This document shows positions 22,867 to 41,587 of a stretch of DNA of 64,000 nucleotides, in pieces (the stretch's first letter is position 1; each line of letters opens with the position of its first letter). The translations under genes were made by a program, and so were the position numbers. The stretch is from contig NZ_CP042856.1 in NCBI RefSeq assembly GCF_008001035.1, positions 1,798,001 through 1,862,000 on the forward strand. Reading direction: 5' to 3'. The notes below the pieces were generated by a model that was not told the origin of the DNA, did no database searches, and saw nothing but the letters and a program-made list of their open reading frames with translations. Source of the stretch: Salinibacterium sp. dk2585. Its GTDB lineage: Bacteria; Actinomycetota; Actinomycetes; Actinomycetales; Microbacteriaceae.

Positions 22867-22877
22867 CTCGAAAGAAG

Positions 22878-22996
22878 TCCGGCGGTGTCCTACTCTCCCA
22901 CAGGGTCCCCCCTGCAGTACCATCGGCGCAGAGAGTCTTAGCTTCCGGGTTCGGAATGTAACCGGGCGTTTCCCTCTCGCTATGGCCGCCGAAACA
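22878..22996 (-). rRNA. rrf: 5S ribosomal RNA
   Basis: The minus strand reads GTTTCGGCGGCCATAGCG at the 5' end, then the conserved CCGAAC loop region, and ends with GGAGAGTAGGACACCGCCGG. The two ends pair as helix I. Ends are placed to within a few bases by eye. Confidence 0.95.
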
Positions 22997-23119
22997 CTAT
23001 TGATTTATGTATCAGTTCATAGCCGCGCACCGTCTCGAGCGGAAGCTCGGCACTGGTGTGCGGGATGATTCCCGACCGTAAATCGGGAACCACAAAGTGG
23101 ACGCGAGACACCTTTGTAA
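22997..23119 (-). other. 23S-5S spacer
   Basis: This spacer of about 123 bases contains no tRNA. It includes GTGTCTCGCGTCCAC sequence next to the 23S 3' end that can take part in the processing stem. Confidence 0.6.

Positions 23120-28225
<5,106 letters not shown>

Positions 28226-34736: not shown

Positions 34737-34737
<1 letters not shown>
34114..34737 (-). CDS. 3-Methyladenine DNA glycosylase (AAG/MPG family)
   Basis: This enzyme removes alkylated purines in base-excision repair. The 207-residue protein has the AAG signature RITELEAYHGADDPGSHAFRGQTPRNSVMFGPAGHLYTYFTYGMH (catalytic Glu in TELEAY) and the downstream RARRHTSRVDDDLARGPGRVSVAL. The start overlaps the argH stop (ATGA; a GTG three bases upstream is also possible), so it is the last gene of the arg transcript. 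In many Microbacteriaceae mpg follows argH in this way. Confidence 0.92.
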
Positions 34738-37077
<2,340 letters not shown>

Positions 37078-37081
<4 letters not shown>

Positions 37082-38265
37082 TGTGCGGCCTCCAATGCCG
37101 TGCTGAAGAGTCTGCCGAACTCGTCGATCTCGACGTCGCCGACGATGAGGGGCGGCGCGATCCGCACACTGTACTCGTTCGCCGCGTTGACGATGAGGCC
37201 TGCGTCGAGCGCGGCCGCAGACACCCTGTTCGCCACCGGCTCCGTGAGGCCGACGCCGATCAGCAGACCGCGTCCGCGCACCTCGTCGACGAGCGGGGAG
37301 TCCATCTCGCGGATCAGTTCCCGCAGCTGCGTGCCGCGCTGCTCCGCGTTGCCGATGAGGCCGGATGCCTCGATCTCGCCGAGCACTGCGTTGGCCGCCG
37401 CGGTCGCGAGAGGGTTGCCGCCGAAGGTGCTCCCGTGGTGGCCCCGCTTGAAGAGCTCGGATGCCTCTCCGAACGTCACGAGGGCACTGATGGGCATGCC
37501 GCCGGCGATGCCCTTCGCGATCGTGACGGCATCGGGCTCGATGTCGAACTGCTGGTAGGTGAACCACGTGCCCGTGCGGCCGACGCCCGTCTGGATCTCA
37601 TCGAGGATGAGCAGCGCGCCGTGCTCCCGCGTGAGCTCACGTGCACGCACGATGAAGCCCTCCGGCAGGTCGACGACGCCGGCCTCGCCCTTGATGGGCT
37701 CGAACACGACGGCGGCGACGGTGTCATCCATTGCCGCTTCGAGCGCCTCGATCGTGCTGTCGATGTGCTCGACACCGTCGAGGAGCGGAGCGAAGGGATC
37801 GCGAAGGGCGGCCTTGCCGGTGAGCGACAGGGCGCCCATGGTACGGCCGTGGAAGGCGTTCGTGAGGGCGAGGATGCGGCGCCGCTTGCCACCGTCGTTG
37901 TTGAGGCGCGCGAGCTTGAACGCGGCCTCCATCGCCTCTGCTCCCGAGTTGCCGAAGTAGACGCGCCCGCGCTCCCCCGCGCCAGTGATGCGCTTGAGCC
38001 GCTCAGCGAGCTCGATCTGCGGCGGCGTCGCGAAGTAGTTGGAAACGTGCGCGAGCGTTGCGACCTGGCTCGAGACCGCGTCGACGAGTGCCGGATGCGC
38101 GTGCCCGAGCGAGTTCACGGCAATTCCCGCGAGGAAGTCCAGGTATCGCTTGCCGTTGGTTCCCCACACGTAGCAGCCCTCACCCCGCTCGAGCATCGTG
38201 AGGGGTGTCGCGTGCGAGCCCATCATGGCCGCACCGAACCTGCTGCTCCAGTCGTGATTCACCAC
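37078..38265 (-). CDS. argD: Acetylornithine aminotransferase
   Basis: This PLP enzyme converts N-acetylglutamate semialdehyde to N-acetylornithine. The 395-residue protein has GEGCYVWGTNGKRYLDFLAGIAVNSLGHAHPALV, YFGNSGAEAMEAAFKLAR, LILDEIQTGVGRTG and the PLP lysine in VTIAKGIAGGMP. The start lies in GTAGTGGTGAAT: GTG 38265 overlaps the argB stop by one base, and GTG 38262 is equally possible. Confidence 0.96.
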
Positions 38266-39191
38266 TACCCTGCCTTCGCTGTCGAGTCGTTGTCGTTTGG
38301 GGTGGCGTCGGGCACGACCTCCGTGCCCACGCCGCTGCTGCGGAACACCTCGAGGAGGATCGAGTGGGCGACTCGCCCGTCGATGATCGCGGCCTTGTCC
38401 ACCCCGCCCGCGACGGCTTCGAGGCAGGCCGTCATCTTGGGGATCATGCCGGACTCGAGCGACGGGAGCAGTGCGGAGAGCTCGCACGCCGTGATCCGAG
38501 ACACGAGCGAGTCGCGGTTCGGCCAGTCGGAGTAGAGCCCCGCGACATCCGTCAGTACCACCAGCTTGACGGCACCGAGCGCGACGGCGACGGATGCCGC
38601 GGCCGAGTCCGCATTGACGTTGAGCGCCTGCCCCGGCACCTCCCCATCGGGTGCGACGGAGGAGACGACGGGGATCTTGCCCGCGTCGAGGAGGGCGTGC
38701 AGCACGGAGGGATCGACATCGACGACCTCACCGACGAGTCCGAGATCGACTTCTTCCCCGTCGACGACCGTGCCACGGCGACGGCCGCGGAAGAGGCCCT
38801 GCGTCTCGCCCGACACCGGCTGCGCCAGGTCACCGTGCTCGTTGATGAGGGCCGCGAGTTCACCGCTGACCTCTCGCGTCAGCACGTCGCGCACGACGTC
38901 CATCGCATCGGGGCTCGTCACCCGCAGGCCGCCGCGGAACTCGCTTTCGATGCCGCGCTCCTTGAGGGCGCGCGAGATCTGGGGGCCACCACCGTGCACG
39001 ACGACGGGCCGGATGCCCACGTGGTGCAGGTAGACCATGTCGGCAGCGAAGGCCCTCTTGAGTTCATCGTCGACCATCGCGTTACCGCCGAACTTCACGA
39101 CGATGATGCGGTCACGGAAGAGGGTCAGCCACGGCAGGGAGTCGATGAGCGTCTGCGCCTGCACGGCGTTGAGGTCGGTCGGCTCGCCCAT
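38265..39191 (-). CDS. argB: Acetylglutamate kinase
   Basis: ArgB phosphorylates N-acetylglutamate, normally the arginine-inhibited step in cyclic pathways with ArgJ. The 308-residue protein has [27 protein letters not shown], the substrate loop [11 protein letters not shown], and [26 protein letters not shown] and [27 protein letters not shown] near the C-terminus. The start overlaps the argJ stop (TGATG). Confidence 0.97.
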
Positions 39192-40375
39192 CAGCTTGAG
39201 TACGCGCTGTTCTCGTGCACGTAGTCGTGCGTGAGGTCGTTCGTGAGGATCATCGCGGCAGCATGCCCCGCGTTGAGTTCAAGCTGCAGCAGCACCTCGC
39301 GACCACTCAGGTCGACCTCCTCGCGCGGCCGGTCTGGGCCGCCCTTGGTGCACACCCGCACGCCGTTCATGAGCACGTCGACGTTGTAGGGGTCGAACTC
39401 GGCCGAGGTCGTGCCGATCGCGGCGAGCACGCGGCCCCAGTTGGGGTCGTTGCCGAAGATCGCTGCCTTGAAGAGATTGTTGCGGGCAATCGACCGCCCG
39501 ACCTCGACCGCGTCGTCCTCGCTCGCGGCGCTCATGACCTCGATCACGATGTCGTGGCTCGCGCCCTCCGCATCACGCTGAAGCTGGAACGCGAGGTCCA
39601 TGCACAGCCCCTGCAGCTGCACCGTGAACATCGAAAGGTCGGGACGGACTCCGGATGCCCCGCTCGCCATGAGCGTCACCTGGTCGTTGGTCGACATGCA
39701 GCCGTCGGAGTCGAGCCGGTCGAAGCTGATCCGAGTGGCCGCGCGAAGTGCCTCGTCGAGCTCGGAACTCGTGAGTTCCGCATCCGTCGTGATGACGACG
39801 AGCATGGTCGCGAGCCCGGGCGCGAGCATCCCTGCGCCCTTCGCCATGCCGCCGATCGTGTACCCGTCGCCCCGCACCGTCGCGCGCTTGGGCTGGGTGT
39901 CGGTCGTCATGATGGCGCGGGAGGCGTCGTCGCCACCGGTCGCGCTGAGGGCCTTCGCCGCGACGTCGACGCCCGCGAGCACGCGGTCGCGGAAGGTCTG
40001 GTCACCCACACCGATGAGGCCCGTCGAGCAGACGAGCACGTCACCCGCCGAGACGTCGAGGGCTTTGCCGACGGCCTCGGCGGTCGCATGCGCCGTCTGG
40101 AAGCCGAAGGACCCCGTAAAGCAGTTCGCCCCGCCCGAATTGAGCACGACGGCAGAGACGACACCATCTTGGATGACCTGCCGCGACCAGATGATCGGGT
40201 TGGCCACGGCCCGGTTGGAGGTGAAGACGGCCGCCGCCGACTGCAGGGGGCCGCGGTTCACGACAAGTGCGAGGTCGAGCCCGCCCGAATCCTTGAGGCC
40301 GGCCTCAATACCGGCGGCCTCGAAGCCCGCGGGCTCGGTCACTCCCCCGACGCCACTCTCCACCGGCTGCCTCAT
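39191..40375 (-). CDS. argJ: Bifunctional ornithine acetyltransferase/N-acetylglutamate synthase
   Basis: ArgJ recycles the acetyl group from acetylornithine to glutamate. The 394-residue precursor has [11 protein letters not shown] and the self-cleavage site [13 protein letters not shown], where the chain splits before Thr to give alpha and beta subunits. The C-terminal region includes [19 protein letters not shown] 40375 overlaps the argC stop (ATGA). Confidence 0.96.
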
Positions 40376-41418
40376 GGCGCCACTCCGTTCGTCTCAAGGC
40401 CCGTTGTCTCGGGCAGCCCGAGGGCGATGTTCATCGACTGCACGGCGGCGCCCGCCGTGCCCTTCACGAGATTGTCGATCGCGCTGATGACGACAAGCCG
40501 GTTGGCCGCCTCATCGACCGCGAGTCCCATGACCGCCGTGTTCGCGCCCAGCACGTCGGCCGTCTTCGGGAACTGACCCTCCGGCAGCACATGCACGAAG
40601 GGTTCCGTGCCGTAGGCGAGTTCCCATGCGGCCCGAGCATCCGAAAGGCTGACGCCGGGCAGCAGCTGCGCTGTGCTCGTCGCAAGGATGCCCCGCGACA
40701 TCGGCACCAGCACGGGCGTGAACGAGACCGTTGCTCCCTCCGCGCCGGCGACCGTGAGGTTCTGCACAATCTCGGGGGTGTGCCGGTGCGTTCCCCCGAC
40801 CCCGTACGGCATGGCCGAACCGTGGATCTCGCTCGCCAGGAGATGTGTCTTAAGGCTCTTGCCCGCCCCACTCGTGCCGACCGCGAGCACGGAGACCAGG
40901 TCTTGCGAATGCACGAGCCCAGCCTGGAGGCCGGGGGCCAGGCCCAGCGTGATCGCCGTGACATTGCATCCGGGCACCGCGATGCGGCGGGCGCCGACGA
41001 TCCGTTCCCGCTGCCGCGAGCCGTCAGCGAGCAGGAGTTCGGGCATGCCGTAGGTCCAGGCGCCGTAGAACTCACCGCCGTAGAACTTGGTCCAGTCTGC
41101 CTCCGAAGTGAGGCGGTGGTCTGCGCCGCAGTCGATCACGAGGGCGCCCTCGCCGAGGTGGTCGGTCAGCTCCCCCGACTTACCGTGCGGGAGCGCGACG
41201 AAGACGACGTCGTGACCCGCAAGGTTCTCGGGGGTCGTGTCGACGAGCGTGAGGTGCTCGAGGGAACGGAGGTGCGGTTGCGCCGCGATGAGCGGCTGCC
41301 CAGCGTTGGAATGGGCGGTGACGGTCGTGATCGTGACATCCGGATGGTGAGCGAGGATGCGCAGCAGCTCGCCACCCGCATAGCCGCTCGCGCCGGCGAC
41401 GGCAACGGAGAGGGTCAT
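40372..41418 (-). CDS. argC: N-acetyl-gamma-glutamyl-phosphate reductase
   Basis: ArgC reduces N-acetylglutamyl phosphate with NADPH. The 348-residue protein begins [26 protein letters not shown] (Rossmann motif) and has the catalytic Cys in [17 protein letters not shown] and [18 protein letters not shown] 41418 has AAGG about 10 bases upstream. The 191-base region before it contains a short Arg-rich frame and a large hairpin, so expression is probably controlled by attenuation. Confidence 0.96.
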
Positions 41419-41461
41419 GGGTTCTACCTTAAATGAGGAACGGACGATGAAAGGCCGGAGG

Positions 41462-41508
41462 CGGCGACGCGGCGGCTGAGCGAAGGGCTCAGCGAGGCGA
41501 CGTCGCCG
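41462..41508 (-). promoter_or_regulatory. Alternative hairpin system in the argC leader
   Basis: On the minus-strand RNA the segment CGGCGACG (41508-41501, within the leader frame) pairs perfectly with CGTCGCCG (41469-41462, after its stop). Inside, GCTGAGC (41493-41487, which holds the TGA stop) pairs with GCTCAGC (41481-41475) around a CCTTC loop. The first arm can alternatively pair with CGTCGCC at 41542-41536, the tandem Arg codons. The two folds exclude each other. A C-rich, G-poor tract follows (41461-41425), and no U-run terminator is visible. Confidence 0.6.
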
Positions 41509-41575
41509 AGAGTCGGCGCGCGCGGAACAGCTCGAGGCGACGCTCGCCGAGCAGGGTTCCACGGATCATGTCCAC
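41489..41575 (-). CDS. Candidate Arg-rich leader peptide upstream of argC
   Basis: This short frame encodes 28 residues from GTG 41575, or 26 from ATG 41569, and ends with TGA at 41491-41489. Seven of the last 26 residues are Arg (positions 3, 10, 11, 16, 18, 19 and 26 from the ATG), including two tandem pairs. The GTG lies 6 bases after a TACAGT hexamer, as in other leaderless starts here, and most codons end in G or C. I read it as a possible arginine-sensing leader peptide. High Arg content can arise by chance in GC-rich DNA, so conservation is decisive. Confidence 0.5.
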
Positions 41576-41581
41576 CCGAAC

Positions 41582-41587
41582 ACTGTA
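41582..41587 (-). promoter_or_regulatory. -10 element of the arg operon promoter
   Basis: TACAGT on the minus strand ends 6 bases before the GTG of the candidate leader peptide, placing the likely transcript start on that GTG. The corresponding -35 region (GTCGAG) is weak. It begins 23 bases after the pheT stop, so argC need not be read from pheST. Confidence 0.5.

Follow-up and report, generated by a model that had tools for sequence, protein, structure and literature searches.

An arginine-rich leader frame upstream of argC

The gap between pheT and argC in the window (the whole 64-kb stretch of DNA that was analyzed) contains a short arginine-rich frame, and the question raised by this locus is whether that frame senses arginine for the downstream argCJBDFH operon or is a chance product of GC-rich DNA. 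The window comes from a 2.84-Mb genome whose nearest named relatives, as judged by argC, are Salinibacterium, family Microbacteriaceae, and it also carries a complete rRNA operon (16S, 23S, 5S) at 22877-28224 on the minus strand. The features of the arg region, all on the minus strand, are as follows.

41582..41587 (-), TACAGT, a -10-like element 6 nt ahead of the leader GTG, with the spacing seen in relatives
41489..41575 (-), Arg leader peptide frame, GTG to TGA, 28 codons, with counterparts in 40/76 genera
41537..41542 (-), Arg codons 12-13 (CGT CGC), the distal tandem, corresponding to the RRR/RRRR cluster seen in relatives
41513..41518 (-), Arg codons 20-21 (CGC CGA), the proximal pair, the CGA lying exactly two codons before the hairpin-opening codon
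41463..41507 (-), hairpin 2:3 (GGCGACG .. CGTCGCC), whose stem opens in the last codons of the leader; from covariation and co-adaptation
41476..41492 (-), inner stem-loop CTGAGC-CCTTC-GCTCAG containing the leader TGA; from sequence and predicted fold
41454..41476 (-), counterpart of the 3:4 helix, GCCG (41476-41473) with CGGC (41457-41454), weak here
41431..41462 (-), C-rich, G-poor stretch from the hairpin to the Shine-Dalgarno sequence (family mean, C 44%, G 20%)
41427..41430 (-), AAGG, the argC Shine-Dalgarno sequence; from sequence and alignment
40372..41418 (-), argC, first gene of the operon (TIGR01850, 355.9 bits)
34737..40375 (-), argJ, argB, argD, argF, and argH, the remaining operon (NCBIfam matches exceeding the cutoff)

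The leader lies between the end of pheT (41610) and the argC ATG (41418). Reading of the sequence from 41575 to 41489 gave 28 codons plus a TGA, with 7 Arg residues, and placed TACAGT (41587-41582) 6 nt ahead of the GTG (41575-41573), as had been described in an earlier note on this DNA. The tandem Arg codons, numbered 10-11 in that note, are codons 12-13 when counted from the GTG. Because the -10 element is only 6 nt before the leader start, the transcript was predicted to start at or next to the GTG and hence to be leaderless. A search of both strands of the 64-kb window for a TAnnnT followed after 6-7 nt by a frame of 15-40 codons detected the Arg leader as the sole case.

Conservation of the leader in the Microbacteriaceae

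The argC upstream regions were read in 80 named relatives and in a single representative of each of 76 Microbacteriaceae genera, with the window genome representing its own genus in the 76-genus set. An Arg leader of the same design was present in 117 sequences and in 40 of the 76 genera; the alignment of the pheT-argC gap that the earlier note had asked for thus revealed a conserved frame with its Arg runs kept. The design comprised a TAnnnT, 6-7 nt, an ATG or GTG, a variable N-terminal half, an Arg run of RR to RRRR, and a second Arg group standing directly before the leader end and followed by GGCG. A typical leader peptide from Microbacterium reads MPSATQGLPTLLPSAAPARRRRLGERRL followed by a stop. 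Of the 117 leaders, 103 had 6 nt and 13 had 7 nt between the -10 element and the predicted start (116/117 with 6-7 nt), leaving no room for a Shine-Dalgarno sequence, as in the leaderless short-frame attenuators of Actinobacteria. When one leader per genus was considered, Arg accounted for 29% of codons in frame 0 versus 9% and 18% in the other two frames. The worry, expressed earlier, that an Arg-rich frame had arisen by chance is countered by this excess, by the 117 family sequences, and by the uniqueness of the frame in the window. Overall, sequence comparison indicated that the predicted frame is short and holds a conserved run of codons for the product of the operon, as is characteristic of attenuators.

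The Arg codons were placed with differing stringency relative to the hairpin that follows. The last Arg codon was always 1-2 codons from the hairpin in the leaders compared, and the first RR pair was most often 9-10 codons before it; insertions were tolerated in the spacer between the two Arg groups, and the N-terminal halves varied freely in sequence. The leader stop was usually a UAG directly ahead of GCGAC, with replacement by UCG or another codon in some lineages. A change of this UAG at the hairpin base to UCG, giving a frame that is 4-7 codons longer and ends inside the hairpin, was observed in a Microbacterium testaceum-like group (L043, L066, and L079-L083), in the window lineage, and in others. 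Relative to the stem, the stop thus varies in position and the CGA codon does not.

No Arg leader was detected in the remaining 36 of the 76 genera, and ArgR was absent there too; the element is therefore dispensable. On a weakly supported ArgC tree, the leader was scattered over the family, requiring ∼11 changes versus 24 with shuffled labels, for which an early gain followed by repeated losses would be the simplest reading. Frondihabitans-like genera (L131, L158, and L205) and L011 had lost the leader frame and retained, in the pheT-argC gap, a GTCGCCGCCCCG-like stretch that resembles a remnant of arm 3. Other leader-less genera, including L134, L137, L157, L181, and L196, had argC directly after pheT with an apparently leaderless start (TAGATTTGACnCATG) and neither an Arg leader nor ArgR. 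Three unusual loci were also observed. Tandem repeat copies (CGACAAGCTCAGGGACCCATAT) were inserted in the 2:3 loop of L056, with the stem arms intact, and L065 had an enlarged 2:3 loop of related sequence, shorter than that of L056. In L141, the leader was ∼333 nt before argC and was followed by ∼230 nt of unrelated sequence, the GGCG hairpin being gone; this is a probable decaying copy. No Arg leader was found at argG (L259, G000:C1:235805-237025), which is outside the arg operon and appears leaderless, with a TACGAT 6 nt from the ATG.

Loss of ArgR

The earlier note had mentioned ArgR/ARG-box control as known in actinobacteria. The N-terminal DNA-binding domain of ArgR (PF01316) was not found in any of 120 Microbacteriaceae genomes (78 genera); the same search gave matches in 9 of the 14 genomes used as controls, Corynebacterium glutamicum among them. 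The C-terminal domain (PF02863) was detected in 178 of 198 genomes of the order, and the misses were all 16 Microbacteriaceae sampled plus 4 small or fragmented genomes, 3 of which were also without argC. In the sister families, nearly all genomes had ArgR and TGTATAGT-ATGCAT-like ARG boxes were present over a leaderless argC promoter, with no Arg leader detected at argC. Control by ArgR is thus contradicted for the family genomes searched, and the leader element most likely does the job that is done by ArgR in the sister families. As ArgR has been lost and the leader and RNA switch are conserved in about half of the genera, arginine is probably gauged via the speed of leader translation.

Alternative helices in the leader RNA

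Three complementary 7-mers had been proposed to form a switch between a 1:2 and a 2:3 pairing. Their complementarity was exact (CGTCGCC at 41542-41536, GGCGACG at 41507-41501, and CGTCGCC at 41469-41463), and the stop was located inside the inner stem as described, with the TGA at 41491-41489 falling in CTGAGC/GCTCAG (41492-41487 with 41481-41476). Structure was examined across a set of 40 leaders, one from each of 39 genera together with a second member from one of them. Hairpin 2:3 (GGCGAC..GUCGCC) starts with the final base of the codon that stands at the leader end and had a mean energy of -28 kcal/mol. Its stability exceeded that of shuffles in 40/40 cases (mean z, -2.95) when the outer 4 bp were fixed and the interior was shuffled. 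The aligned stem contained 88.6% standard pairs, its covariation score was reached by 0 of 500 shuffles, and RNAalifold recovered the stem unaided. The two halves were co-adapted, as none of 5000 between-genus swaps fit as well; the permutation ranks given here ignore relatedness among genera, with negative pairings serving as internal controls.

The 2:3 part of the proposed switch was therefore conserved and covarying, but the 1:2 part did not stand. Two versions of the 1:2 pairing exhibited no co-adaptation, with 2588 of 5000 permutations as good, so that the helix expected of an attenuator in an untranslated leader was not found among these pairings. Co-adaptation was likewise not detected between the leader and segment 3 (1:3) or between segment 3 and the Shine-Dalgarno sequence or argC start. 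Within the coding part of the leader, a hairpin was co-adapted (0/5000) and may be a pause hairpin. A role for region 3 as a mimic of argC coding sequence (GTCGCCGTC) was considered and rejected, several genera being without GTCGCCGTC in argC and yet keeping 2:3.

The co-adapted alternative to 2:3 was a downstream helix, 3:4, that lies beside the argC Shine-Dalgarno sequence and formed no part of the earlier note. One strand of this helix comprises nucleotides immediately upstream of arm 3 and part of arm 3 itself, and the other lies 12-24 nt ahead of the argC ATG; 0 of 5000 permutations were as good. Arm 4, at -24 to -12 from the ATG, ended a median of 3 nt before AAGG. The stability signal was weak with a short 5' arm and became clear with a longer arm and a localized scan; the sliding scan localized 3:4 in the nested order expected for a hairpin. 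Examples include GUGGGCG..CGUCCAC, GAGACG..CGUCUC, and UCGUGUGAC..GUCGCACGA. In the window genome, the helix has only 4 bp and lies ∼23 nt from the Shine-Dalgarno sequence; in most other genera it is strong and co-adapted. As 2:3 and 3:4 share one strand, they are mutually exclusive, so that the pair of exclusive helices typical of an attenuator is co-adapted across genera, with 3:4 weak in the genus of the window. Rfam gave no match at the gathering level and no T-box, the one sX15 match being at chance level (E, 0.6).

The invariant CGA codon

In 39 of the 40 leaders, CGA stood two codons ahead of the hairpin codon. As a background, CGA made up 2.5% of the 1234 Arg codons counted in the argC genes of the family. 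Given a footprint of the usual size, a ribosome holding this codon in its A site would cover roughly 5 nt at the start of the stem. The tRNA-Arg genes of the window genome have only the anticodons ACG, CCG, TCT, and CCT, and no tRNA-Arg(UCG) was found there. The ACG tRNA (ICG after editing) alone can read CGA, which is therefore decoded through I34:A, a reading reported to be inefficient (PMC3711424). CGA was retained in all 7 of the 7 leaders in which its A could not pair in a 1:2 hairpin. Retention where pairing is impossible makes decoding a likelier reason than pairing for the conservation of this codon.

Proposed mechanism and level of control

Comparison within the family established the frame, the Arg clusters, the CGA, hairpin 2:3, and the family-level 3:4 helix. 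The element is real and conserved and is most likely an Arg-sensing, ribosome-mediated attenuator. A complete scheme for argCJBDFH with a leaderless leader peptide, including the stalling steps and the shutdown of argC, is one that we consider probable. Transcription would begin at the GTG, ribosomes would load on the 5' end, and the leader would apparently be translated from the first transcript base. When arginyl-tRNA is scarce, a ribosome would stall at the distal Arg cluster and leave segment 2 free, so that 2:3 would form, 3:4 would be blocked, and argC would be translated. With plentiful arginine, it would go on to the slow CGA and the stop and cover segment 2, whereupon 3:4 would form against the Shine-Dalgarno sequence and argC would be shut down. 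Sequestration of the Shine-Dalgarno sequence was assessed by accessibility and rejected, as its predicted accessibility was equal in the masked and unmasked states; the 3:4 helix would therefore act by crowding the 30S site and not by pairing with the Shine-Dalgarno sequence. Which way the switch responds to arginine, and at what level it acts, are inferred in this scheme.

The level of control was considered in relation to the sequence after the hairpins. The earlier note had listed the lack of a U-run terminator as a weak point, and the alignment bore this out, with no U-run after 2:3 or 3:4 and AATAAGG-like sequences past 3:4; the order of a classical transcriptional attenuator, 3:4 and then a U-run, was not observed. 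The distance from the hairpin end to the ATG was tight (median, 39.5 nt; interquartile range, 38-42). Control probably acts on the translation of argC and not through intrinsic termination, since arm 4 is tied to the Shine-Dalgarno sequence, the hairpin-ATG distance is tight, and there is no U-run. The same leader could instead have a transcriptional output, in which 2:3 or 3:4, acting with Rho or as a U-run-less terminator, stops RNA polymerase before argC as decided by the position of the ribosome. The C-rich tract that had been noted after the hairpin holds for the family as a whole, is G-poor and unstructured when folded alone, and could serve Rho, for which linked leader control is known in Salmonella speF (PMC6386406). 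This tract is, however, just ∼25-30 nt long, both hairpins are without a U-run, and neither the tight spacing nor the tie between arm 4 and the Shine-Dalgarno sequence is needed for termination, and we regard a transcriptional output as rather unlikely.

Polarity was weighed in a similar manner. Conservation of the proximal CGA could point to the opposite arrangement, in which starved ribosomes stall on CGA, mask segment 2, and block 2:3, so that 2:3 is repressing and 3:4 permissive. Such an arrangement would fit the invariant distance between CGA and hairpin (the distance of the distal cluster varies), the stem coverage expected of a ribosome at CGA, and the much greater strength of 2:3. Starved ribosomes should, however, halt earlier, at the upstream Arg cluster, and it is 3:4 that abuts the Shine-Dalgarno sequence, 2:3 leaving it free; the reversed polarity was judged unlikely. 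A conserved structured RNA, either a riboswitch or a protein target, in which the frame is incidental and the peptide is not sensed, would account for the covarying hairpins and draws on the ease with which GC-rich DNA yields Arg-rich frames. The start signal, frame, Arg clusters, and CGA were nevertheless kept in widely diverged leaders, the CGA even where it could not pair, while the N-terminal halves varied freely, and this explanation appears very improbable.

The preferred reading, a translational attenuator in which arginine plenty shuts down argC, has wider consequences. In a large family of bacteria from soil, water, and plants, the leader would stand in for an otherwise near-universal arginine repressor. 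Such a natural exchange of protein sensing for ribosome sensing can be traced from genus to genus, the leader having been lost again in some. The invariant CGA offers a direct test case for slow wobble decoding as a timing device in gene control. More tentatively, loss of ArgR may have placed the arginine operon under a leaderless translational attenuator in which CGA, readable only by the weak I:A wobble, holds the ribosome at the switch hairpin as a constant brake or sensor; if this possibility, to which we give less than even weight, is true, then charging of Arg-tRNA(ICG), and perhaps its inosine editing by TadA, becomes the signal for arginine biosynthesis.

Relation to known systems

Classical attenuators of Actinobacteria are known for trp, ilvB, and leuS, and a survey of the amino acid operons of this phylum by Seliverstov et al. 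in 2005 saw no conserved RNA structure for arginine (PMC1262725). Literature searches, with a thin reach for subscription journals, found no leader attenuator of bacterial arginine biosynthesis. The Arg leader shares with the classical trp and his attenuators a leader peptide enriched in the amino acid that the pathway makes, 2:3 and 3:4 helices that exclude each other, and a stop beside segment 2; it differs from them in having a leaderless start, an arm 4 tied to the Shine-Dalgarno sequence, no U-run terminator, and no conserved 1:2 helix. ArgR with its ARG boxes and Arg T-boxes have in common with it the control of arg genes by arginine, but ArgR and its box are absent from the Microbacteriaceae and no T-box match was obtained here.

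Two arginine-sensing leaders have been described, neither of which acts on arginine biosynthesis. In orf34 of Salmonella speF, two consecutive Arg codons set alternative RNA structures according to arginine; this enterobacterial frame lies inside a long leader sequence and, unlike the Arg leader, controls ornithine decarboxylase via Rho, translation, and RNase G (PMC6386406). The rbfL leader of Staphylococcus aureus also senses arginine by rare, slowly decoded Arg codons, but it is 8 codons long, regulates biofilm, and in starved cells directly obstructs the rbf ribosome-binding site, with no hairpin switch described (PMC13009471). Nearest in style, as judged from citing descriptions, are the leaderless poly-cysteine frames of mycobacteria (Canestrari et al. 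2020, cited in PMC9031893; PMC4633059). These frames sense cysteine rather than arginine; as described in those sources, they resemble the Arg leader in being actinobacterial, leaderless, and short, in carrying a run of the pathway amino acid, and in lying upstream of biosynthetic genes that are subject to attenuation without a clear terminator.
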